Origin: a virus
Length of the DNA stretch: 40,491 nt
Reading direction: 5' to 3' (one strand)
Virus record (IMG/VR): IMGVR_UViG_3300050821_023937
Location: 1-40,491 of that record
This document shows positions 1,534 through 40,491 of this stretch, in pieces. The position numbers and the translations under genes were made by a program. Under the pieces are notes generated by a model, which worked only from the letters and a program-made list of their open reading frames with translations, was not told the origin of the DNA and did not search any database. Position 1 is the stretch's first letter; each line of letters starts with the position of its first letter.

Positions 1534-2000
1534 TGCCGCGCCGCGCGCCACTTCGGCTCGACCAGCTCGATCTGCTGACGTGGCAGCCGCCGGAGACGGT
1601 GGCGCGGTTCGATGACCACCAGGTGCGCGCGGCGTCCGTCGCCGGCCGGCTGTGCAAGGCGATCTCCGCGGCGCTGGACGAGTGCGGGAAGTCACGTGAG
1701 ACGGTCGCCTCGGCGATGTCGCAGTTCCTCGGTGTGCGGGTCAGCCTGAACATGCTGAACGCCTATGCCAGCCAGGCGCGCGAGGGCCACCAGGTCAGCG
1801 CCGTGCGGTTCGTGGCGCTGATCCACGCGACCGGCGACCGCCGGTTGCTGGAGCTGCTGGCGGAGGGCTTCGGCTGGGCAGTGATCGAGCGGAAATACCT
1901 GCCGCTGATCGACCTAGCGCGGTTGCGCGAGCGGTCCGACGAGCTGGACCGCACGGCCGACGCAATCCGGCGCGACGCACGCGCGAAGGGCATCTTCTGA
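1533..2000 (+). CDS. CII-like / HTH-type early phage protein
   Basis: The 155-residue product lies directly upstream of the transposase and shares one base with it (TGATG). Residues 54-118 hold a helix-turn-helix-like run (SRETVASAMSQFLGVRVS, then LNMLNAYAS). This is followed by a segment, RFVALIHATGDRRLLELLAE (about residues 90-109), with the layout of phage CII-family regulatory proteins, where a FxALxxATGD motif precedes a helix and then FGxxVI. The C-terminus (about residues 124-155) is a charged amphipathic helix. Proteins in this position of alphaproteobacterial Mu-like phages are conserved and are presumed to act in transposition or early regulation. The CII resemblance comes from reading the pattern only. 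Confidence 0.65.
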   Translation: MPRRAPLRLDQLDLLTWQPPETVARFDDHQVRAASVAGRLCKAISAALDECGKSRETVASAMSQFLGVRVSLNMLNAYASQAREGHQVSAVRFVALIHATGDRRLLELLAEGFGWAVIERKYLPLIDLARLRERSDELDRTADAIRRDARAKGIF

Positions 2001-3967
2001 TGCTGACCAGGGAATGGTTCAGCGCTGCCGAGCTTGCCGCGATGGCGCTGCCGTCCCTGCCAAACACCACACGCGGGATCAACCTGCTGGCCGAGCGTGG
2101 CGATTGGCAGCGGGACGCCTGGCGGGACGTGCGCTGGCGGGCGCGTGCGGGACGTGGCGGCGGGATGCAGTACCACTACTCGGTGCTGCCGAGCGTGGCG
2201 CAGATCGTGCTGACGATGCAGTTCAGCCAGGTGGCCGAGGCATCGGAGCGCGCCGTCGCAAAGGCGCAGCTCACGCAAGCCGAGATGTGGCGCTGGTTCG
2301 ATGCGTTGCCGGCGCTGAAAAAGGCGAAGGCGGCCGACAAGCTGGAAACCCTGGACGCGGTGCGGGCGCTGATACGCGGCGGCATGGGCAAGGTGATTGC
2401 CATGCAGCAGGTCGCCGCGCATTGCGGGGCCAAGCTGTCGTCGCTGTATGCCTGGGAACAGTGCATCCACGGGATCGACCGGCATGACTGGCTGCCATAC
2501 CTGGCGCCGCGACATGCCGGCCGCACGACGACGGTCGAGTGTTCCGATGCGGCGTGGGATTTCCTGAAGGGCGACTATCTGCGCCCGGAACGTCCCGACT
2601 TCGAAGCGTGCTGGCGGCGGCTGGAGAGAGCGGCGAAAGAGCATGGCTGGACGCTGCCGAGCCGGCGCACGCTGGCCAGGCGGATAGAAGCGCTGCCGGC
2701 CGAGCTGCGGGTCTATGCGCGTGACGGCGCCGATGCGCTGAAGCGGATGTATCCGGCGCAGCAGCGCGATCGTGGCGTGTTCCATGCGCTGGAGGCGGTG
2801 AACGCCGACGGGCACAAATGGGACGTGTTCGTGCGTTGGCCCGACGGGACTGTCGGCCGGCCGCTGATGGTGGCGTTCCAGGATCTGTATTCCGGCAAGC
2901 TGCTGTCGTGGCGGATCGACCGCAGCGAGAATAAGGAAGCGGTGCGGCTGGCTTTCGGCGACCTGGTCGAGCAGTTCGGCATCCCCGATTTGTGTTGGCT
3001 GGACAACGGCCGGAGCTTTGCCAGCAAGTGGCTGACCGGCGGCACGCCGAACCGCTACCGGTTCAAGGTGCGCGACGAGGATCCTGTGGGCATCCTGACG
3101 AAGCTCGGCGTCGAGGTGCACTGGACCGAGCCGTATGCCGGGCAGTCGAAGCCGATCGAGCGGGCGTTTCGCGACTTCGCCGGCGACACGGCGAAGCATC
3201 CGAAATTCGCGGGCGCCTACACCGGCAACGATCCGCTGGCGAAGCCGGAAAATTACGGGTCCAAGGCTGTGCCGCTGGATGTGTTCCTGGCGGTGCTGGA
3301 GGAAGAGATCGCGGCGCACAACTCGCGCGCCGGGCGTCGGGCGCTGGTGTGCGCGGGACGCAGCTTCGATGCGACGTTCGCCGCCAGCTACGAGACGGCG
3401 CCAATCAAAAAGGCGACCGTCGAGCAGCGGCGGCTGTGGCTGCTGGCGGCCGAGGCGATCACGGTCGGGCGCACCGATGGCGTGATCGGCCTGCTGGACA
3501 ATCGGTATTGGGGCGAATTCCTGCACCAGCACATGGGGCAGAAGGTGATCGTGCGGTTCGATCCGCAGCGGCTGCACGACGATCTGCACGTGTATCGGTT
3601 GGACAACGCCTATCTGGGCGCCGCGCGGTGCGTGGCCAAGGTTGGTTTCGCCGACGCGACGGCAGCGCAACAGCACGCCCGGGACCGCAACAGTTTCAGG
3701 AAGGCGACGAAAGCGGCGTTGGCCGCGGAGCGCCGGCTGTCCATCCAGGATATCGCGGCGCTGATGCCCGAGCCGGAGATGCCGGCGGTGGCACCGGCGG
3801 CACGCGTGGTGCGGCTGGTGCGGGCCGTGGGCGCGCCGACACCGATGCAAGTGCAGGAGGAAGAGGGATCGCAGGACGCGGTCTTCGATGCGCTTTCGCA
3901 AATGAACGCCGCCCGGCGAGGCGGCGTTCATCTGCGGGTCGTCAACCCGGAAGCCGACGGCGACTGA
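2000..3967 (+). CDS. A: Mu-type transposase (MuA-like, DDE)
   Basis: This is the 655-residue recombinase that carries out strand transfer of the phage ends during integration and replicative transposition. The N-terminus (residues 1-60) resembles the MuA winged-helix DNA-binding domain (EWFSAAELAAM, LPNTTRGINLLAERGDW). The middle holds further HTH-like segments. The catalytic RNase-H fold follows: D270 in AVNADGHKWD, D335 in CWLDNGRSF and E387 in QSKPIERAFRDF. Length and spacing closely match MuA (663 residues; D269, D336, E392). The Mu transposase C-terminal beta-barrel lies near residues 470-560, and the Lys/Arg-rich tail would be where MuA contacts MuB. It is followed by the MuB-like gene after 27 bases. 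All three acidic residues are present, so it looks intact. Confidence 0.96.
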   Translation: MLTREWFSAAELAAMALPSLPNTTRGINLLAERGDWQRDAWRDVRWRARAGRGGGMQYHYSVLPSVAQIVLTMQFSQVAEASERAVAKAQLTQAEMWRWFDALPALKKAKAADKLETLDAVRALIRGGMGKVIAMQQVAAHCGAKLSSLYAWEQCIHGIDRHDWLPYLAPRHAGRTTTVECSDAAWDFLKGDYLRPERPDFEACWRRLERAAKEHGWTLPSRRTLARRIEALPAELRVYARDGADALKRMYPAQQRDRGVFHALEAVNADGHKWDVFVRWPDGTVGRPLMVAFQDLYSGKLLSWRIDRSENKEAVRLAFGDLVEQFGIPDLCWLDNGRSFASKWLTGGTPNRYRFKVRDEDPVGILTKLGVEVHWTEPYAGQSKPIERAFRDFAGDTAKHPKFAGAYTGNDPLAKPENYGSKAVPLDVFLAVLEEEIAAHNSRAGRRALVCAGRSFDATFAASYETAPIKKATVEQRRLWLLAAEAITVGRTDGVIGLLDNRYWGEFLHQHMGQKVIVRFDPQRLHDDLHVYRLDNAYLGAARCVAKVGFADATAAQQHARDRNSFRKATKAALAAERRLSIQDIAALMPEPEMPAVAPAARVVRLVRAVGAPTPMQVQEEEGSQDAVFDALSQMNAARRGGVHLRVVNPEADGD

Positions 3968-18198: not shown

Positions 18199-19215
18199 AT
18201 GATTAACAAGCGCGATCGGATGTTGGGAACGATCTCGATCGGGAGCTCCAGCGGTTTGGAGATAGGTCCTCTCGCTTCGCCGTTGGTGGCGAAGTCGGAA
18301 GGCCGCGTGTTGTATGTCGACTATGCGACAACGGAGATCGTGCGGGCAAACCAGCGTGATCCCGCTTTCAACCTCGCGGATATTGTGGATGTGGATATCG
18401 TTTGGGGCGAGCGGCCTCTGAAGCAAGCGGTGGGCGGGACCGTAGATTACGTGGTGGCTAGCCACGTCATAGAACATGTTCCGGATCTGATCGGATGGCT
18501 TCGCGAGATTTACGATGTGCTCGCGCCCGGGGGGACACTCGGGCTTGTCATACCAGACCGGCGCTTCACGTTCGATCTCTGGCGCTACGAAAGCACCTTG
18601 GGCGAGATGGTAGAGGCATATCTGCTTCGTTACCGTCGTCCTTCGATCCGACATGCGTTCGATGCCTTCCACTTGTCCGCTGCCGTCGATACATCCGCAG
18701 CATGGCAATCCGATCTGCGGACGGCCGGCTTGCCGCACGACACCCGGGCTCGTCTGTCCGAAGCTTTTGCCGTGGCGAAGAGCCTGGTTGCGACACCGCG
18801 TTACGTGGATTTGCATTGCTGGGTGTTCACCCCGGCGACCTTCCTGGATACCGCCGAGGCCCTGCTCCGGCTCGACCTATTCCCGTTCTTGATCGACGGC
18901 TTCTTTCCGACCGAACCAGGGGAGCTTGACTTCCAGGTCAGGCTCATCGCCGTGGCGGAAAATCAGCAGGATGCCATCGCCGCATCAATCGCCGCAGCGC
19001 GACGAAATCTGGCGAACGCCAGCGCATGGCCGCTGGAGCGCTCTTGCGCTGCAACCTCCCCGACCCACCCGCCTGATCAACCAGATATCGGGCAAATTCA
19101 GAGCGAGATCGTCGAGTTGCGCCGTGCGCTTGAATCCATGCACAGGTCCACGTCCTGGCGTATCACCGCTCCGTTACGCGCCGCTGCTCGCCGGATCGGC
19201 TTGCTAATGCGATGA
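18199..19215 (+). CDS. Cargo SAM-dependent methyltransferase, surface-glycan type
   Basis: The 338-residue protein has the class I methyltransferase fold. LEIGPLASPL (residues 20-29) is motif I and VLYVDYATTE (37-46) carries the acidic ribose-binding Asp. ASHVIEHVPDLIGWL (87-101) is motif II/post-motif II and LAPGGTLGLVIPD (108-120) is motif III. Residues 120-260 are a cap-like region. The end, ESMHRSTSWRITAPLRAAAR, has the STSWRITAPLR motif found at the ends of many bacterial LPS/O-antigen glycosyltransferases and methyltransferases. That suggests it modifies a surface polysaccharide. It does not belong to the Mu gene plan and looks like a moron gene. Base use seems a little less GC-biased than its neighbours. 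ATG 18199 is a tentative start. Confidence 0.82.
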   Translation: MINKRDRMLGTISIGSSSGLEIGPLASPLVAKSEGRVLYVDYATTEIVRANQRDPAFNLADIVDVDIVWGERPLKQAVGGTVDYVVASHVIEHVPDLIGWLREIYDVLAPGGTLGLVIPDRRFTFDLWRYESTLGEMVEAYLLRYRRPSIRHAFDAFHLSAAVDTSAAWQSDLRTAGLPHDTRARLSEAFAVAKSLVATPRYVDLHCWVFTPATFLDTAEALLRLDLFPFLIDGFFPTEPGELDFQVRLIAVAENQQDAIAASIAAARRNLANASAWPLERSCAATSPTHPPDQPDIGQIQSEIVELRRALESMHRSTSWRITAPLRAAARRIGLLMR

Positions 19216-31966: not shown

Positions 31967-32428
31967 ATGGCCTGGATCGATCAAGCTCTGGTCTACGATC
32001 CCGTTCGCCGGCGCTGCGCGCTGGCGTTCAACGGCGTCGATCTACAAATCGACGACACGCCGGTGACGCCAATCCTGATCGCGGCCGGCTGCAATCGCCG
32101 CGCACACCCCGACGATGCGCTGCCGGACACGGTGACCAATACCTACACGCCGTCCCGGCTGAACGCGCGTGGCGGCTGGCCCGGCGATGCGCTGGATCTG
32201 CTCGGCCGGCTGATCGGCAGCCGCATGTGGCTGCTGCAGCGGCGCAAGCAGGACGATGCCACGCGCCAACTGGGCGAGAGCGCGCTATCCGAGGCGTTCG
32301 CGCCGATCAGCGCGCAACGCGGCTGGCCGATCGCCATCACGGTCACCTGGGTCCGCAAGGGCTTCCTAGGCTGCCTGACGCGCGTCGGCAACACGACGCT
32401 GAACCTTGTGCTGCCGGCGGCGTCCTGA
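31967..32428 (+). CDS. Mu gp46-like baseplate wedge protein
   Basis: The 153-residue product matches the GP46 family. The part SRMWLLQRRKQDDATRQLGE is characteristic of the family. Others are WPGDALDLLGRLIGSRMWLL and the C-terminal GWPIAITVTWVRKGFLGCLT. ATG 31967 gives MAWIDQAL, which fits better than the GTG three codons upstream. In Mu it belongs to the baseplate wedge. It shares one base with the gp47-like gene (TGATG at 32426). The short interval before it is where R3 lies. Confidence 0.9.
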   Translation: MAWIDQALVYDPVRRRCALAFNGVDLQIDDTPVTPILIAAGCNRRAHPDDALPDTVTNTYTPSRLNARGGWPGDALDLLGRLIGSRMWLLQRRKQDDATRQLGESALSEAFAPISAQRGWPIAITVTWVRKGFLGCLTRVGNTTLNLVLPAAS

Positions 32429-33540
32429 TGCCCTGGCCGATCCCACAACCCACCGACATCGCCGACCGCGCTGCCGGCGTCTACGAGAGCGAGTTCGCAC
32501 GCATCTATGCGCTGCTGAACCCCAACGCGCCGCCGGCGCAGGTCGATGCGCGGTCGCCGGCGTCGTGCCTGGCCGTGCATGCCCGTGTGCTGGGAATGAC
32601 CGGCTTCGATCTCTACGGCATGCAGGCGCGCCTGGCGCAGGAACTGATGCCCGACACGGCCATCGACTGGCTGCCGCGGCATGGCAGCACGTGGGGTGTG
32701 CCGCAGGATCAACCGGTCGCCGCGGCGGGCAACCTGGTGCTCCCGGGCGGCTCGGTCAACACGATAATCCCGGGTGGTTTTGAATTCAGCGTCAACGGCG
32801 GCAGCGTCTACGAAGTGGTGAACGCCGTCACGATCGAGGCCGCCGGAACGATCTCTGTCGGCATCTCGGCCGCAGTCGGGGGCACCGCCGGCGATCTGGC
32901 CGCGGGCGTCACGCTGACGGCGGTCAACGCGCTGGGCGGCTTGTTCTCCCAGTCCGGCACCGTCGACGTGAACGGCATCACCGGTGGGCAGGATCTGGAG
33001 CCGATCGAGAGCTGGCGGTCGCGCATCATCCAGCGCATCCAGCAGCGCGGCGCCGGCGGCGACGCGAACGACTTCATTCAGTGGACGCTGGAAGCGCTGC
33101 CGGGCGCGATGGTCGATCCATTCTCGCCCGGCGTCGGTCTGATCACCGTGGCGATCGCCATGCCCACGCCGACCGGCCCGCGCGTGCCGACCGGCACCGA
33201 GCTATCGGAAGTCACCGCCTATCTGAACAACTCGACGCTGCGGAAGCCGCTCGGCGCGCCGGTGATCGACGTGATCGGTGCCACGCTTCAACCGGTGAAC
33301 TTTACGCTGCACATGAACCCTGACACCGTCGAGGTGCAGCAGGGCGCGACGGCCGCGCTGCAGCTCTACTTCATGTCCAGCGACATCATGATCGGCGGCA
33401 CGCTGGATATCTCGCGGGCGGACAACGCGATCAGCTTCGCCGCCGGCGCCTACAACTTCGACCGCACCGTGCCGAGTGGCGATGTCAGCCCCAGCACGGT
33501 CACGTCGCTGCTGACGCTGGGCACGGTGACCTTCGTATGA
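32428..33540 (+). CDS. Baseplate J-like protein (Mu gp47-like)
   Basis: The 370-residue protein matches the baseplate J / gp47 family (T4 gp6-like wedge). Signals are HARVLGMTGFDLYGMQARLA, MPDTAIDWLPRHGSTWGVPQ and SVYEVVNAVTIEAAGTISVG. The conserved central part is GGQDLEPIESWRSRIIQRIQ, followed by GAGGDANDFIQWTLEALPGA and VTVAIAMPTPTGPRVPT-type strands. The last quarter (about residues 285-370) is beta-rich (VGATLQPVNFTLHMNPDTVE-like). It overlaps the next gene by ATGA (33537). Confidence 0.92.
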   Translation: MPWPIPQPTDIADRAAGVYESEFARIYALLNPNAPPAQVDARSPASCLAVHARVLGMTGFDLYGMQARLAQELMPDTAIDWLPRHGSTWGVPQDQPVAAAGNLVLPGGSVNTIIPGGFEFSVNGGSVYEVVNAVTIEAAGTISVGISAAVGGTAGDLAAGVTLTAVNALGGLFSQSGTVDVNGITGGQDLEPIESWRSRIIQRIQQRGAGGDANDFIQWTLEALPGAMVDPFSPGVGLITVAIAMPTPTGPRVPTGTELSEVTAYLNNSTLRKPLGAPVIDVIGATLQPVNFTLHMNPDTVEVQQGATAALQLYFMSSDIMIGGTLDISRADNAISFAAGAYNFDRTVPSGDVSPSTVTSLLTLGTVTFV

Positions 33541-34127
33541 GCCGCACCGCTGCCCAAGCACAGGAAGGCGTGCTGTCGCTGGTCCCCGATGGCTTTGTGT
33601 TCTCGCGCGACGTGGATGATTACGAGGCCGCGCTGGAACTCGCCACGGCGAAGGAATGGTCGCTTGTCGAGCAGACCATGGAGAGTTTCGAAGACGAGAT
33701 CGACCCCGGCACCGCGGAGCATTTGCTGCCGGATTATCTGCGTGTCCTCGGGCCTGATCCGTATGGTCGCGACGAACTGACGCTGTCTTCGGCGTTGCGT
33801 TCGCTGCTGGCGCACCAGCGCTGGGTAGACGCGCCGATCATCTGCCCCGGCTATTTCGTGCAGAGCGCGGCCGAGCTCGGCATCGCGATCACCATCACCG
33901 AATACGAATTGCCGGTGTGCGGCGAAGCTGTGTGCGGCGACACGCTGATGCCGTGGCTCCAGCAGTGCGTGTTCCTGGTCACGCTGCCGACCGACCTGGT
34001 GTGGGACGCGACCTGTGGTGACTGCGTCTGTGGCGACACGATGGGCGGCTTCACGCCGTCGGTGCTGGAGAACTTCATCACCCAGAAGGCGCCGCTCTAT
34101 ACGCGCCCCGTCTTCAACTACACGTAG
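33537..34127 (+). CDS. Mu gp48-like (DUF2313/YmfQ) baseplate protein
   Basis: The 196-residue protein matches the YmfQ/DUF2313 family, the last baseplate wedge component. The N-terminus has VLSLVPDGFVFSRDVDDYEA and LATAKEWSLVEQTMESFEDE, and then EIDPGTAEHLLPDYLRVLGP, the family's P-x-T-A-x-x-L-L-P-D-W/Y-E-R-x-L-G motif. A C-terminal part has four to five Cys in repeated CGD-like turns (VCGEAVCGD, CGDCVCGDTM). These turns are conserved in DUF2313. The gene links the baseplate to the tail fibre. Confidence 0.92.
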   Translation: MSRTAAQAQEGVLSLVPDGFVFSRDVDDYEAALELATAKEWSLVEQTMESFEDEIDPGTAEHLLPDYLRVLGPDPYGRDELTLSSALRSLLAHQRWVDAPIICPGYFVQSAAELGIAITITEYELPVCGEAVCGDTLMPWLQQCVFLVTLPTDLVWDATCGDCVCGDTMGGFTPSVLENFITQKAPLYTRPVFNYT

Positions 34128-34136
34128 GAAACGCCA

Positions 34137-35018
34137 ATGGATCGGGTTTCATCGGCGGGCTTCCAGACGATCAGCGGGCGCCGCACCTGGCAGAACAAGA
34201 ACCTCGGCGCTGGCCTTCAGGGCACGACGTTCGACCAGATCTTCATGGCCGGCGTGCAGGAAAGCCTCATCGCTCTTGCCGAGCAGGTCGGCATATCGCC
34301 GGCGGACCAGGCGCTCGGAAACATCGATCTGCAAGCGCTTCAGGGCGTGCGCCGGATCGCCGGCGGCAATTTCACCGGCGTCACCAGCACGTCGGAAACG
34401 CTGACCGCCGACAATGCGGGCTTGGTGGTGGTGAACGCCGCCTCGAACAACGTCGCGATCACGCTGCCTCTGGTGAATTCGGCCAACGGCCAGAAGCTGG
34501 ACTTCGACTTCGTGCGGGTGGACACCAGCGGCAACGCCGTCACGGTCGCGGTCGCCGGATCCGATGGTGTAGTCCCCGGCAGCTCGCCGATCCCGATTGC
34601 CTTTGGGGCCCCGGTGCAGATATCCGGCGACGGCGTAAGTCACTGGCTCGTTCTGACCGCACCGCCCGTTTCGACCGCCGGGCTGGTGCCGTTCAGCAAA
34701 ATGGGCATCAACGGTGGGGCACGCAACTCAGGAGGCGGATCGCTCACTTCCAGCGCGAGCTTCACGCCGAGCTGGAACGGCATCCTCTTCGTGAATGGAA
34801 GCGGCGTCACAAACGGCACTCTGACGGCGGTCAGTCTGACCTACAGCGGCGCGACCATTCAGGAAGACGCGACCGGCTTCGGCGACCAGGCCCTTTTTTG
34901 CGGGACCGCCAGCGTGACGGCGGGCACTCCGGTTACGATAACGGTTTCTATGACCGTCCCCGGAGGATCCACCATCACTTCGCTGGGATTTGTCTTTCTC
35001 CTGATGCCGACTTCATGA
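34137..35018 (+). CDS. Tail fibre / receptor-binding-type protein
   Basis: The 293-residue protein follows the gp48 gene, where the tail fibre is expected. The first 70 residues (DRVSSAGFQTISGRRTWQNK) probably attach to the baseplate. Next is a beta region (TLTADNAGLVVVNAASNNVA, ITLPLVNSANGQKLDFDFV) like fibre repeats that hold a capping motif. The C-terminal 100 residues (SASFTPSWNGILFVNGSGVT, ISVSMTVPGGSTITSLGFVF-like) are strand-rich, as in receptor-binding tips. It is small for a full fibre. Function is inferred from position and composition. Confidence 0.72.
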   Translation: MDRVSSAGFQTISGRRTWQNKNLGAGLQGTTFDQIFMAGVQESLIALAEQVGISPADQALGNIDLQALQGVRRIAGGNFTGVTSTSETLTADNAGLVVVNAASNNVAITLPLVNSANGQKLDFDFVRVDTSGNAVTVAVAGSDGVVPGSSPIPIAFGAPVQISGDGVSHWLVLTAPPVSTAGLVPFSKMGINGGARNSGGGSLTSSASFTPSWNGILFVNGSGVTNGTLTAVSLTYSGATIQEDATGFGDQALFCGTASVTAGTPVTITVSMTVPGGSTITSLGFVFLLMPTS

Positions 35019-35025
35019 GGCCGCA

Positions 35026-35505
35026 ATGATCTACTATCTGACCGCGACGGGAAACGGTTGCTCCCCCGACGCGACCCTGCCTGCCGGCGCGGTGGAATGC
35101 ACACAGGCGCAGTATGCGAACGCCGCCGCATGGATGATTTCAGGCGGCGCGATCATCGCTGCGCCAGCTCCGACACTGACACTCGCCCAACAGGCGACGG
35201 CAATGCTGAACGCCGGGATGCAGATCGTCTCGACCGGCACGCCGGCGCTGAACGCGACGTTTGCCTGCGATCCCGCGACCTATCAGCGCGTCGGCGGCAT
35301 CGTCGCGGCGATCGCCGGTGGCCTCGGGCTACCAGGCGGCGGTGCCACGTTCCTTTGGCCTGACACAACCGGCACCCCGCACAGCTTCAGCGTGGTGAAC
35401 TTCAGCGCTTTCGCCAAGGCAATGATGGACTTCGAGTACACGCTGAACGCCATCATCGGGAGCAATAGCGGCACGCTGCCGCCACAGCCGGTGCCGATCG
35501 CCTGA
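35026..35505 (+). CDS. Tail fibre-associated protein of unknown function (DUF4376-like end)
   Basis: The 159-residue product has an N-terminal part with MIYYLTATGNGCSPDATLPA and a helical linker (LAQQATAMLNAGMQIVS). It then has a C-terminal region with FLWPDTTGTPHSFSVVNFSA and FAKAMMDFEYTLNAIIG. The W-x-D-x-x-G-x-x-H-x-x-x-x-x-x-F-x-x-x-A pattern recalls the DUF4376-type tail-fibre chaperone end. This is a weak match. It shares a base with the next gene (TGATG at 35503). Confidence 0.62.
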   Translation: MIYYLTATGNGCSPDATLPAGAVECTQAQYANAAAWMISGGAIIAAPAPTLTLAQQATAMLNAGMQIVSTGTPALNATFACDPATYQRVGGIVAAIAGGLGLPGGGATFLWPDTTGTPHSFSVVNFSAFAKAMMDFEYTLNAIIGSNSGTLPPQPVPIA

Positions 35506-35813
35506 TGGCTCGCGAGATCCACATCAAGCAGGGCGCGGCGCTGCGGCTGACGATGAATTTCTACGAGCACGACGCGCCCGTGGATCTGTCCACGGTCACG
35601 CTGTCGTCGCAGGTGCGCACGTCGCTGAACATCCTGGTCGCCACGCTGCCGATCACCATCACCGGCACCCCCGGACTGGCGACGGTCGAGGTCGACAACA
35701 CCACGAACTGGCCGGTCGGGCTGCTGCGCTGCGACGTGCTGGCGCTGATCGCCGGCGTTCCGTCGCTGACCGACACGTTCCCGATCCGCGTCGAAAGGAG
35801 CGTCACGCAATGA
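35505..35813 (+). CDS. Ig-like small baseplate/fibre protein
   Basis: The 102-residue product is a single beta-sandwich-like protein: HIKQGAALRLTMNFYEHDAP, then VDLSTVTLSSQVRTSLNIL and LATVEVDNTTNWPVGLLRCD. This resembles the N-terminal domain of BppU-like or similar baseplate accessory proteins in arrangement of strands and the D-L-T-G-x-x-x-x-x-x-V/I-R motif. It overlaps the next gene by ATGA (35810). The role, possibly fibre attachment, is inferred. Confidence 0.6.
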   Translation: MAREIHIKQGAALRLTMNFYEHDAPVDLSTVTLSSQVRTSLNILVATLPITITGTPGLATVEVDNTTNWPVGLLRCDVLALIAGVPSLTDTFPIRVERSVTQ

Positions 35814-36241
35814 GGGTGGTGATCGCCCAGTGCGACACGCTGCCGCCGGTGCTTCCGGTCGCGACAGGGGCTTCGAGCACCGATTTCGTGGTGGTCAATC
35901 AGTCCGGGGTAACGCGCACCGTCACGCTGGAACTGATCCTGGAGGCTTTGATGGCAGTCGATTTCACGCCGCTGGCGGTGTCGGTCGGCACGACATACGA
36001 CAACCCAGTCGAGCCGGTCGGCAATGGACCAATGCGCAAGGCGCTGGCGATCCAGAACGCGTCGCCCAGCGCCGGCGTCTACGTGTTCTTCGGGACCGAT
36101 GCGCCGGAAGACGACACACTGTCCTGGGAACTTGGCCCGGGCCAGGCGTGGCCGCCCGCGGGCGTGAATAGCGTCAGCCAGGACGGCGTCTGGCTACGCG
36201 CAACTGCCGCCGCAACCCCCGTCGTCATCATGGTAGGCTGA
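35810..36241 (+). CDS. Fibre-locus protein of unknown function
   Basis: The 143-residue protein has a leading part with MRVVIAQCDTLPPVLPVATG and FVVVNQSGVTRTVTLELIL, then a compact beta domain (AIQNASPSAGVYVFFGTDAP, WELGPGQAWPPAGV, DGVWLRATAAATPVVIMVG). The second part looks like a capping domain of the kind that closes phage fibres. No signal peptide is present, unlike the next gene, which starts one base after its stop. Confidence 0.58.
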   Translation: MRVVIAQCDTLPPVLPVATGASSTDFVVVNQSGVTRTVTLELILEALMAVDFTPLAVSVGTTYDNPVEPVGNGPMRKALAIQNASPSAGVYVFFGTDAPEDDTLSWELGPGQAWPPAGVNSVSQDGVWLRATAAATPVVIMVG

Positions 36242-36242
36242 A

Positions 36243-36689
36243 ATGAAACTCCGCTCCCTCTGGCTTGCCTGCGCGATGCTGCTGGGCGCTGTCGGCGCTG
36301 CCAGTGCCTGCCCAAATGTGCCGACGATAAACCTCGCGACCGACGGCAACGGCAACGGCTGTGTCACAACGACGCCGGGCTTAACCACTGCGGTCGCTCA
36401 GATCGGCCCCGCGATGATACCTTTCGCTGCAACGACCGGCGACCAGGCGCTGACCCTGACGCTGCCGGGCAAGGTTCGCCTGCAAGATCCGGGGTATCTA
36501 ATTGGCACCTCAACGGGCAACCCCACACCGCTGCAGGTTAACTACTCTGGCGGAAACGCTTGCACCGCCCCGACCGAGACGCTGGGGCCGGGGCAGATTG
36601 GCGATTGGGTCTACATCGCCAACACGACGCAGCCCCACGTCTGTCTGCCATCGGGTGCAGCTTCATTCTTGATCGAGGGGCAGCAATGA
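36243..36689 (+). CDS. Small secreted protein with signal peptide in the fibre locus
   Basis: The 148-residue protein begins with a clear signal peptide: MKLRSLWLACAMLLGAVGAA, followed by an ASA-type cut site (about residue 21-22). The mature part is beta-rich with four cysteines (CPNV, CVTTT, CTAP, CLPS), compatible with two disulfides, and has no recognised family. Tail proteins do not normally carry signal peptides, so this one is probably exported to the periplasm or outside. Its stop overlaps the next ATG (ATGA at 36686). Confidence 0.65.
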   Translation: MKLRSLWLACAMLLGAVGAASACPNVPTINLATDGNGNGCVTTTPGLTTAVAQIGPAMIPFAATTGDQALTLTLPGKVRLQDPGYLIGTSTGNPTPLQVNYSGGNACTAPTETLGPGQIGDWVYIANTTQPHVCLPSGAASFLIEGQQ

Positions 36690-39610
36690 TGCGCATCACG
36701 ATGCGCCCAGTTTTTGTCTGCCTCGTGGTCCTTATCGGGTCGCAGTTCGCGGGCCTGACTACGCGGCTGATCGATCGCGATTTTGACGCGGCGATTGCTG
36801 CCAGCGGTCCCGCTGGCCTGGCGCCCGGTCAAAATCTGAAGGATGCGCAAAACTGCGACAGTGTGAGGATCAACGTCGGTCCGGTGCCCCAGGGCTACAG
36901 CCTCGCATGCCCGCAGTGGGGGGCCGTCGCTGACTTGCAGAAGGCGTGGGTTGCCGTCACCACGACGACCAGCTCCACGGCCCTTGCCGCGAGCAACACC
37001 ACGACGCTGACGAACACCAGCGTCACACTCTATCCCGGTGGGCGCCGCATCCATGTCCCGGCCGCTTCCTTCACGACCAGCGACGTCGGCAAGCCGTTCA
37101 CGCTGACAGTTGCCGGCGGCCCTGATCAGTTCGGCAATCTGACGACGCTGTCCGGATACATCACCGGGTATATCTCTAGCACGGATGTCGAACTGAGCGT
37201 GCCGCCAAATAATTACGGAGCGTCTGCCGCGATCACGGCGACGTTCACCTACGGAGCTTTGTTTCAGGCCGGCGATGTCGGAAAAGCCCTAGTCGTCGCA
37301 ACGGCGGGAAGCTCCACACAGCAGCATCTCTACACCACCATCGCTGGCGTCACTGACCCCAACGACGCCACCATGGGGGCGGCAGCGCAGCGGCCAATCC
37401 CTGGCACGCTTGGGGTCCAGGTGACTTGGGCAACCGACAATTATGTGGCGCTTGAGAAGGCGCTCGCCGCCACGCGGGCAGCCGGATACCACTACCTGCT
37501 GTGCCCGAGTGGCGCCTATTACACGCACGATTTCCCGCCCGACATGAGCAACGTTTCGATCGTCGGGGACTGCGACATCGAAACCCCGAATGGCAAGTGG
37601 GAGACGGCCGACGCGCTGGCTTTCGCGGCGTTCGGCACCAGCAATCAGGTCATTCCCTACAGCGCACCCGACGCGCTGCCCCCTCCGAACGAAATCGACC
37701 CTGGGGTAATGCTGACCAACCTCAAGGCGGCCGGCACAGGGGGCGCGGCGGCCGCCGTGGTGGACACATTCGGCGATAGCCTTGGCGTCGCGCTGGACAA
37801 CGGCGCCACCACGACGCCGACGATCGCCTTTTGGTTCGAGAAGCGGCTGGTGGAACAGAACCCGCTGCGCGCCATCAATCCGGTCAACACGCGCAACATC
37901 GGCGGCCAGACCTGGTGGCACATGGACACCGTGCCGAACACGGCGGCTGCGGCGAACGGGGTAGCATGGTATCCCAACTGGGCTCAGGCCAACTTGAGCG
38001 CGCAGGCGAATTCGGGCGCGACCACGCTGACCTTCACCAGCACGGCGGCGTTCACCACCGGGTGGGAGTGCCAGGCCCAGGGTAATTATAGCGCCATCCC
38101 GCTTCACACGACGGCTACCGTGACGAATGGCACGACGCTGACACTGACCAATGCAACGACCGCCGTGCTGGCGAGCGGAACACAGATCACCTGCGGGCAG
38201 CGATGGGTCGACGTCGTCAAGGCCGACACCCCCACGTTGCTTTATCAACAGGCCAACAACAACGACGGCCTGAACTTCTGCCGGGCGGCGACATTCCCCA
38301 ATCCGACGTTCTGGAATTTCCTCGACATCCAGGCATACTCTTTGACCTGGACCACCCAGCCGGACCGTCTGTTCGGCGTGCCTTACACCTATAGCCCGGC
38401 GTCCAATCAGACCACCACACAGCCCTTTGCCACGGCCGATGCCTGCGGAGACGAGTTTATCCGCTCCTGGTCGAAGGCTCACGCGTATGGGGTCTTTGAC
38501 TATTGGCGCCTGTCGACGATGGCCCGCGACGGCTATGATCCGGTTTATCCGCCGATCACACGCGATCTGTCTATCGGCTTCTCGACGGTGGTGTCGCTGC
38601 CATACGTCGTCAAAACATGGACTGCGCCCGACTGGAGCTTCATCGCGGAGGATGCCTCTCACAGCCCGACCACCTATTGGACGGCGTTTACGCCAGCGGC
38701 GGGGAACGGCGAGCTGGACATGACGCTGGGGTGCAGCGCGAGCTGCTCACCCTCGAATGTCAGTGACAATATGTTTCGCCTGGTTGCCGACCAGACCGCC
38801 GACACGCTCGGCGACAACGCGAACGGGAACCTAAAGGTCCAGTGTGATCTGACCATCGGCTATCCCGGCGCCGGCTGCCAAATGCTGAACAGCTCCGGCG
38901 TGCGGATCGGTGGCACTATGCCGAGCGTGCTGGGGCACTTCTCGATCACGTCCGGCGCCAACACGCTGACCTCGACGGAAAACGTGTTCGTCGCAGGCGA
39001 TGATGGGACCGACATCACCGTGCCGGGGGCGAACAACCTGACACAGGGCACCTGGCTGCACGCGATCATGCACTACGTGTCCGCGACGCAGGTGACGCTC
39101 TGGACCACCAACGCGTTCTCAACAGCCGTCAACGCGACGGTGACGCTGAGCGGGCACTATCAGGTGATGCTACGCGGCAATCCGCGCATCGACACCGGGA
39201 TCCCGATCGCCGCGCTCTCGCAGAGCTCGACCCAGTGGTGGTTTTCGGAAAGCGGCGGGCGGGTGACGATCTTCTGGCTTGATCAGTACCACCACTTTTC
39301 CATCCAGGCGACGAACTTCGGCCTTCCCATCCGACCGCAGATCAGTACCCCGGCGGGGACCGTCGTCAACGGGTTCACACTATATAAGGACGCCGGCGGC
39401 TTCGGAGGGTTGGGCACTGCTTCAGGCATGGGCACCCGGTTCCGCAAGACGATCATGGATGAAGAAGTCTCGGGCTGGCAGGCACAGCCGACGACGCTCA
39501 ACAATTCCGCGTTCGCATCTCCAGGCTGGGGGGACGGGACCAACCATCCCCGCACCACGAACTGGATCATCCAGGAACTGATCAATGCGCAGAACCTGTC
39601 TGCGCAGTGA
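36686..39610 (+). CDS. Large signal-peptide-bearing SGNH/GDSL hydrolase-domain tail-locus protein
   Basis: The 974-residue protein starts at ATG 36686 behind GAGGGG (36675-36680). An N-terminal hydrophobic segment (PVFVCLVVLIGSQFAGL, about residues 7-23) looks like a signal peptide or anchor. A beta region has SFTTSDVGKPFTLTV and then DNYVALEKALAATRAAGYHY, like the start of pectin-lyase-fold tailspikes. The SGNH core follows: block I GDS (G363-S365) in DTFGDSLG, block II NIGGQ (G406-G407), a block III-like NNND (524-527), and block V DASH (D656-H659). The C-terminal 300 residues are beta-rich. Esterase action on a surface glycan (deacetylation) is the likely role. GTGA overlap links it to the methylase gene. 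Confidence 0.75.
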   Translation: MMRITMRPVFVCLVVLIGSQFAGLTTRLIDRDFDAAIAASGPAGLAPGQNLKDAQNCDSVRINVGPVPQGYSLACPQWGAVADLQKAWVAVTTTTSSTALAASNTTTLTNTSVTLYPGGRRIHVPAASFTTSDVGKPFTLTVAGGPDQFGNLTTLSGYITGYISSTDVELSVPPNNYGASAAITATFTYGALFQAGDVGKALVVATAGSSTQQHLYTTIAGVTDPNDATMGAAAQRPIPGTLGVQVTWATDNYVALEKALAATRAAGYHYLLCPSGAYYTHDFPPDMSNVSIVGDCDIETPNGKWETADALAFAAFGTSNQVIPYSAPDALPPPNEIDPGVMLTNLKAAGTGGAAAAVVDTFGDSLGVALDNGATTTPTIAFWFEKRLVEQNPLRAINPVNTRNIGGQTWWHMDTVPNTAAAANGVAWYPNWAQANLSAQANSGATTLTFTSTAAFTTGWECQAQGNYSAIPLHTTATVTNGTTLTLTNATTAVLASGTQITCGQRWVDVVKADTPTLLYQQANNNDGLNFCRAATFPNPTFWNFLDIQAYSLTWTTQPDRLFGVPYTYSPASNQTTTQPFATADACGDEFIRSWSKAHAYGVFDYWRLSTMARDGYDPVYPPITRDLSIGFSTVVSLPYVVKTWTAPDWSFIAEDASHSPTTYWTAFTPAAGNGELDMTLGCSASCSPSNVSDNMFRLVADQTADTLGDNANGNLKVQCDLTIGYPGAGCQMLNSSGVRIGGTMPSVLGHFSITSGANTLTSTENVFVAGDDGTDITVPGANNLTQGTWLHAIMHYVSATQVTLWTTNAFSTAVNATVTLSGHYQVMLRGNPRIDTGIPIAALSQSSTQWWFSESGGRVTIFWLDQYHHFSIQATNFGLPIRPQISTPAGTVVNGFTLYKDAGGFGGLGTASGMGTRFRKTIMDEEVSGWQAQPTTLNNSAFASPGWGDGTNHPRTTNWIIQELINAQNLSAQ

Positions 39611-40491
39611 GAGATAGCGGCAGCCGCGCTGCCACCGAGCGGCTGATCACGAACGTCGCCGGCGCTGGCGGGGCGATGCACATGCTGATCCCGGCCGCCG
39701 CCGCCGCGCCCGTCGCTCCCTATATCGGTGGCAAGCGTCGCCTCGCGTCCCTGATCATCGAGCGGTTGGCGGCGATCGCCCACGAAACCTATGTGGAGCC
39801 GTTCGTGGGGATGGGCGGCGTGTTTCTGCGGAGACCTTTCAGGGCGCGGGGGGAAGTGATCAATGATCTCAGTCGTGACGTCGCCACGCTGTTCCGCATC
39901 CTTCAGCGGCACTACGTGCCCTTCATGGAGATGCTTCGCTACCAGGTCACCAGCCGCGCCGAGTTCGAACGGCTCAAGGCAGCCGAGCCCGACACCTTGA
40001 CGGATCTGGAGCGTGCCGCGCGGTTCCTCTATCTCCAGCGCACAGCGTTCGGCGGGAAGGTTGCCGGCCGGCATTTCGGTGTGTCGCCCGCCACGCCCGC
40101 GCGCTTTGACGTGACGAAGCTGGCGGCGATCCTGGAGGCTGCCCACGAACGTCTCGCCAGCGTGGTGATCGAGTGCCTGCCCTACCAGGAGCTGCTGCCG
40201 CGCTACGACCGGCCGGGCACGCTGTTCTACCTCGACCCGCCATACTGGGGCGTCGAGGATGACTACGGCGCCGGCGTCTTCAGCCGCGCCGACTTTGGCC
40301 GGCTGGCGACGCTGCTGGCTGGCCTGAAGGGCCGCTTCCTGATGTCCATCAACGATCGGCCGGAGGTGCGGCGGCTATTCCGAGGGTTCCAGATAGAGCG
40401 TGTGTCGACCACCTATTCGATCGCCGGCTCCAAGGGCAGCCGCCCGGCCACCGAGCTGCTGATCAGCAACGTCCGTAAGGGGCCTCTTTGA
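39607..40491 (+). CDS. D12-class DNA adenine methylase (Dam-like)
   Basis: The 294-residue reading frame starts at GTG 39607; ATG 39676 or 39682 is the better start if the first 23 codons are a relic. The enzyme core is clear: PYIGGKRRLASLIIERL (motif X), YVEPFVGMGGVFLRRPFRA (motif I, FxGxGG), NDLSRDVATLFRIL, QRTAFGGK, and DPPYWG (catalytic motif IV), then FLMSINDRPEVRRLF. It methylates adenine in DNA; the target site cannot be read from the sequence. It takes the place of mom at the right end of Mu and may protect phage DNA. It runs to the last base of the window. The stop of the SGNH gene lies inside its GTGA. Confidence 0.9.
   Translation: MRDSGSRAATERLITNVAGAGGAMHMLIPAAAAAPVAPYIGGKRRLASLIIERLAAIAHETYVEPFVGMGGVFLRRPFRARGEVINDLSRDVATLFRILQRHYVPFMEMLRYQVTSRAEFERLKAAEPDTLTDLERAARFLYLQRTAFGGKVAGRHFGVSPATPARFDVTKLAAILEAAHERLASVVIECLPYQELLPRYDRPGTLFYLDPPYWGVEDDYGAGVFSRADFGRLATLLAGLKGRFLMSINDRPEVRRLFRGFQIERVSTTYSIAGSKGSRPATELLISNVRKGPL
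39619..39657 (+). repeat. Relic copy of the methylase 3' end
   Basis: These 39 bases match 40435-40473 at about 34 positions. The second copy encodes GSRPATELLISNV at the end of the methylase; the first encodes GSRAATERLITNV in the same frame. A piece of a methylase C-terminus thus lies directly before the gene, as expected if an earlier methylase copy was replaced or lost. Confidence 0.65.
40435..40473 (+). repeat. Methylase 3' end, second copy of the repeat
   Basis: This is the coding copy, within the last residues of the adenine methylase (GSRPATELLISNV). Its counterpart lies 816 bases upstream at 39619-39657. Confidence 0.65.

Follow-up and report, generated by a model that had tools for sequence, protein, structure and literature searches.

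Phage spikes and fibres are taken as parts of the virion that are made in the cytoplasm. The tail locus studied here raises the question whether this holds for a 974-residue protein that starts with a signal-like segment and continues into a core resembling the SGNH hydrolases. Does it act as part of the particle, or is it exported by the host cell? A sequence-only reading of the DNA had named both options, a depolymerising or deacetylating tail protein or a protein exported by the lysogen. We refer to the whole stretch of DNA analysed, 40,491 nucleotides in length, as the window.

Gene neighbourhood and host

The window is a linear IMG/VR virus record of ~67% G+C from a Mu-like phage of Acetobacteraceae, in which the target gene is situated in the tail locus, between the baseplate and tail fibre genes and a Dam-like methylase gene (Table 1). 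A Mu-type transposase is encoded at 2000-3967 (48% to Ochrobactrum phage POA1180). Relatives of the J-like baseplate protein occur at ~50% identity in two Acetobacteraceae MAGs, and hence the host is likely a member of this family. Amid the head genes, 18199-19215 reads like a SAM-dependent methyltransferase (HVIEHVPDLIGWLREIYDVLAPGGTL).

The open reading frame of the target is real, as previously assumed, and its ATG overlaps the stop codon of the preceding gene (ATGA). Further upstream, the conserved N-terminus of the probable tail fibre shares 41-65% identity with its counterparts in L002-L006 and L009. The three small tail genes that follow are DUF4376-like (35026-35505), LtfC-like (35505-35813) and a third at 35810-36241. 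In the small protein directly upstream of the target, the first ~42 residues are conserved, the C-terminus is variable, and four cysteines remain after cleavage. This protein and those at L002:11388-12257 and L003:16795-17613 are small predicted exported proteins with these ~42 residues in common, consisting of a signal peptide and CPNVxTVNxAxDGxGxxC, and with unrelated C-termini. Their constant/variable layout resembles that of receptor-binding proteins.

Table 1. Tail-locus genes of the window and features within the target gene.
Feature	Position	Strand	Remarks
Baseplate genes: J-like wedge gene (32428-33540) and a second gene (33537-34127)	32428..34127	+	phrog_6, phrog_203
Probable true tail fibre	34137..35018	+	Conserved N-terminal ~180 aa, variable tip, without signal peptide
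Three small tail-locus genes	35026..36241	+	Weak Pfam/PHROG matches; without signal peptides
Small signal-peptide protein, 148 aa, directly upstream of target	36243..36689	+	Mature CPNVPTINLATDGNGN
Target gene: predicted exported SGNH hydrolase with pectin-lyase-like cap, 974 aa	36686..39610	+	
Signal peptide region, residues 1-40	36686..36805	+	MMRITMRP followed by VFVCLVVLIGSQFAGL; candidate cleavage IGS↓QF or AIAA↓S
Pectin-lyase-like cap, residues 245-285	37418..37540	+	Equivalent to WGTDNTAA...FPAGTYC in relatives
Block I GDS (363-365), predicted nucleophile S365	37772..37780	+	Invariant in nine sequences
Block II oxyanion Gly G407 (IGGQTW)	37904..37906	+	Invariant in nine sequences
Insertion between blocks II and III, residues 422-505	37949..38200	+	Absent from relatives
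Block III NNND, predicted catalytic N526	38255..38266	+	N526 and D527 invariant; usual Gly replaced by Asn
Long insertion from core to block V, residues ~640-945, presumed binding domain	38603..39520	+	Architecture common to relatives
DASH (656-659), not catalytic by conservation	38651..38662	+	Found in window protein only
Block V GDGTNH (949-954), predicted catalytic H954	39530..39547	+	G949 and H954 invariant in nine sequences
DNA adenine methylase (Dam-like), right cassette boundary	39607..40491	+	phrog_56, E 3.6e-84

Relatives and membership of the SGNH hydrolases

Direct searches with the target protein gave no match in Pfam (nothing up to E 5), PHROGs, NCBIfam, PDB, annotated phages, IMG/VR or GTDB genomes. 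Sister phages were collected by anchoring on the baseplate gene, and one of them, L002, encodes a full-length homolog (P0002) in the equivalent slot. The two proteins are 27% identical and align by blastp in two stretches (1e-17 and 7e-9); P0002 has a signal peptide and contains GDS as well as a canonical GPND. Relatives were also found in L013 and in the Acetobacteraceae genome loci L022, L023, L024, L049, L050 and L051, and overall identity of the target to its relatives is ~22-28%. The Acetobacteraceae genomes with relatives are compact, at ~2 to 4 Mb (e.g., G059, G136, G727). Three further queries for additional viral relatives gained none.

By homology, the target protein belongs to the SGNH hydrolases, and the earlier assignment to this family is thereby supported. 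A profile built from six relatives, L049 and L051 among them, with the target left out, scored the target at 99 bits, against 7.4 bits for the best of 2000 shuffles. Moreover, the relative in L049 exceeds the Pfam cut-offs for both PF13472 (37.5, cut-off 32.9) and PF00657 (32.4, cut-off 23.6).

Catalytic residues

Thirteen residues are invariant in the nine-sequence alignment: G363, D364, S365, P393, G407, P516, N526, D527, G616, D649, G949, H954 and Q969. In line with the sequence-only reading, these include the GDS of block I, the glycine of block II and the asparagine of block III. The reading had to be revised on three other points. It had taken DASH as block V, which conservation rules out, since the histidine of DASH is kept in no relative whereas H954, ~295 residues further on, is invariant; the predicted catalytic histidine is therefore H954. 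Consequently, the segment 355-665 that had been put forward as the SGNH core lacks the catalytic histidine, and the domain extends from ~340 to 974 with insertions. Finally, the residue in place of the usual glycine of block III is not alanine, as had been stated, but asparagine (N524, in NNND). The corrected histidine shows which residue to mutate.

The spacing of block V in the target is DGTNH rather than DxxH, and the acid ahead of the histidine, D950 in the target, is N or S in the others. Hence, a strict Ser-Asp-His triad does not appear to be a feature of this family. Together with the lack of the block III glycine, this variable position means that full activity is not assured. The protein might even bind polysaccharide by means of a dead SGNH domain, an explanation that would account for the asparagine in block III, the non-conserved acid of block V and the long insertions. 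Yet, the serine, glycine, asparagine and histidine are all kept at such low overall identity, for which selection on catalysis offers the best explanation, and we therefore consider a dead enzyme very unlikely.

Other domains

The pectin-lyase-like start that had been noticed earlier is present at residues ~245-285 (WATDNYVALEKALAA...LLCPSGAY), and the relative P0004 has a sub-threshold match to PF12708 at the equivalent place. Only this cap is recognisable in the target; it ends at ~285-300, and no beta-helix could be recognised beyond it. The insertion at residues 422-505 resembles segments of other prophage tail regions (tblastn to L035, 2e-6). AlphaFold2 models, each based on three aligned sequences, had a mean pLDDT of 27.0 for the full protein and 28.9 for the core of the L013 relative (330-970).

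Signal peptides in the tail-locus slot

The hydrophobic N-terminus passed a rule-based test for signal peptides, in agreement with the sequence-only reading. It has a charged n-region, a hydrophobic h-region and small residues at -3/-1, and is atypical compared to its relatives in its short h-region and the charged stretch ahead of AIAA. The test was a home-made rule with a score of at least 29, and the start codons of some relatives were picked with this rule in view.

Are such N-termini common at this position? In eight loci, we defined the slot as the genes downstream of the small tail genes, up to Dam if the contig is long enough to include it. Signal peptides were predicted for 16 of the 17 slot genes, compared to one of the 33 genes from the baseplate to the slot (Fisher 6e-11, a descriptive value because the grouping was made after the loci were seen). 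The slot proteins with a signal peptide are diverse: SGNH proteins (window, L002, L017), pectin-lyase spikes (L017:13751, L063:3736) and repeat fibres (L009, L011). Slot proteins with a signal peptide also occur in further prophages (L071, L076, L081-L083, L088), while those of L070, L074, L078, L087 and L090 are without one.

At L003:13666-18704, four signal-peptide proteins stand in a row from the tail fibre locus to Dam, namely a repeat fibre, two small proteins and a Gly-rich tip.

The presence of a signal peptide might also be explained by a host origin, with a secreted enzyme taken up as cargo for lysogenic conversion and unrelated to tail function. This would fit P0004, a relative with a signal peptide located between argH and lysA on a chromosome, where no phage genes are recognisable except one fibre-like neighbour (genes named by eye). 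However, the slot is occupied by a wide range of fibre- and spike-like proteins, and the sister phage L002 carries its full-length homolog at the equivalent place, which makes host cargo an unlikely explanation.

At L037:7845-12235, argH and lysA flank a fibre-like gene together with an SGNH relative that has a signal peptide. Other phage genes are not recognisable there, and the two genes are either a remnant or a domesticated pair.

Cysteine parity

Exported proteins of Gram-negative bacteria favour even numbers of cysteines (PMC7678975). The target has 13 cysteines in total and 12 after cleavage at every candidate site. An even number of mature cysteines was found in all 25 complete signal-peptide proteins, including those with odd totals and one cysteine in the signal peptide; three of the 25 had no peptide by the rule and their AxA site was set by eye, and because some are mutual homologs the effective number is below 25. 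Control phage proteins with at least two cysteines comprised 21 even and 12 odd cases (Fisher 6e-4). Parity separated the proteins better than cysteine density, which by itself did not distinguish spikes lacking a signal peptide from proteins that have one (p 0.25).

Fresh prophage loci yielded another six signal-peptide proteins that resemble spikes or fibres (L093, L098, L102, L107, L110, L111), after three further, membrane-protein-like matches had been left out by inspection. Five of the six were even at the site given by the rule, and L102 was even only at a better site, ACHA↓Q. The signal peptides of the slot and of this fresh set support Sec export of the target, as predicted from sequence.

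The default expectation for a gene that follows the tail fibre in a tail operon is a role in the virion. The target could thus be an ordinary tailspike or fibre that acts as part of incoming virions, with a hydrophobic N-terminus that is lost in assembly or else serves in docking or trimerisation. Two relatives are consistent with this possibility, the spike-like protein of L013, which has the same architecture as the target without a signal peptide, and the spike-like protein of L050, which also lacks one and lies in a classic prophage tail locus. In addition, a signal-peptide-like start (MRALPLLLAIALWFLSADNASA↓APVAG) is seen in a protein of Sinorhizobium phage Aussie that is annotated as a tail protein (L053:30701-33496, 932 aa). 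Conversely, AxA-type cleavage motifs, frequently with Gln at +1, occur in unrelated proteins, which is hard to explain if these are assembled in the cytoplasm. Furthermore, cysteine parity is even exactly when the cysteines of the signal peptide are discounted, and the gene at 34137-35018 upstream is already fibre-like. We regard an ordinary virion tailspike as rather unlikely.

In the L050 locus, a prophage in G173, IS3-like transposase genes (L050:9020-10206) lie between the tail fibre gene and the SGNH spike gene.

Possibly, export and attachment are combined, such that spikes fold and form their disulfides in the periplasm and join the virions at lysis. This would reconcile the position in the tail locus with the evidence for export, and for P22, addition of tailspikes to completed particles works in vitro. 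Yet, we know of no description of such a route, and Pfam and PHROG searches gave no match to a known family of virion-attachment domains at the N-terminus, which consists of the signal-like segment. Late attachment thus seems quite improbable.

Export is the reading that we prefer, since AxA signal peptides recur in the slot and the number of mature cysteines is always even. Of the options named by the sequence-only reading, the exported protein is thereby favoured and the tail protein less so.

Comparison with known systems

SGNH deacetylases in phage fibres and in receptor-binding proteins of temperate phages are already known (PMC13123978, PMC9569702). Like the target, the Possum tail fibre gp66 and gp63.1 of Escherichia phage G7C, both SGNH polysaccharide deacetylases, have an SGNH domain in a tail-locus protein. 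However, these are virion fibres with N-termini for attachment, whereas the target starts with a signal peptide and carries a pectin-lyase-like cap along with large insertions. No direct sequence match of the target to either protein was detectable, and the link to Possum runs via the relative in L050, of which the SGNH region matches the tail fibre of this Pectobacterium phage (E 6e-7). The Possum fibre is a proven deacetylase that takes O-acetyl groups off O-polysaccharide (PMC9569702).

Two SGNH receptor-binding proteins of temperate Klebsiella phages were active on p-nitrophenyl acetate (PMC13123978). They are tail-locus SGNH esterases, as predicted for the target; in contrast to our case, the text of that paper makes no mention of signal peptides or secretion. 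Compared to the GDSL lipases/acylhydrolases of PF13472 and PF00657, the target has blocks I, II, III and V in the same order, while it lacks a Pfam match of its own and has long insertions ahead of blocks III and V. With the pectin-lyase-like tailspikes of PF12708 it shares the start of the domain (TDN-TAA...P-G-Y), placed before the SGNH core, yet without a recognisable beta-helix after the cap. Signal peptides on tail fibres or spikes were not described in the titles and abstracts searched, which came largely from outside the subscription journals. To the extent of this literature, the combination of a recurring signal peptide and paired cysteines has no earlier description.

Proposed function

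The contexts of the relatives in L050, L049/L051 and P0004 point to a polysaccharide esterase. The proteins of L049 and L051 adjoin nucleotidyltransferase- and HAD-like genes in what resembles a glycan-synthesis cluster (named by eye), and the similarity of L050 to the Possum fibre makes deacetylation, as proposed earlier, the likeliest predicted activity. In our view, the target is probably an exported polysaccharide O-acetylesterase of the tailspike type, in which a Sec signal peptide replaces a recognisable virion-attachment domain. The protein would be made from the late tail operon and exported via Sec; its signal peptide would be cut off and the 12 remaining cysteines would form pairs in the periplasm. 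With an oxyanion hole made up of G407 and N526, S365 and H954 could then remove O-acetyl groups from a polysaccharide of the Acetobacteraceae host, either on its surface or extracellular. Such an activity might alter the host surface so that sister or competing phages fail to adsorb, or clear away debris and matrix during lysis and thereby keep progeny from being trapped; these two roles are the most speculative part of the proposal. Late addition to virions would be another possible role.

More generally, we see about an even chance that Acetobacteraceae prophages, among them the phage of the window, carry a recurrent class of exported tailspikes. Its members, SGNH esterases and fibre-like proteins as well as spikes of the pectin-lyase kind, would each combine a cleavable Sec signal peptide with paired cysteines and act beyond the cytoplasm without depending on the particle. 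They might, for example, remodel host surface glycans against competing phages or free the progeny at lysis. If this applies to the whole prophage group, the life cycle would regularly involve free receptor-modifying enzymes, and the spike genes of prophages could not simply be read as host-range determinants.

The SGNH relatives at L049:6384-7988 and L051:463-2046 are compact (527-534 aa) and located in conserved chromosomal clusters of two Acetobacteraceae genomes; they are well suited to determination of a crystal structure.
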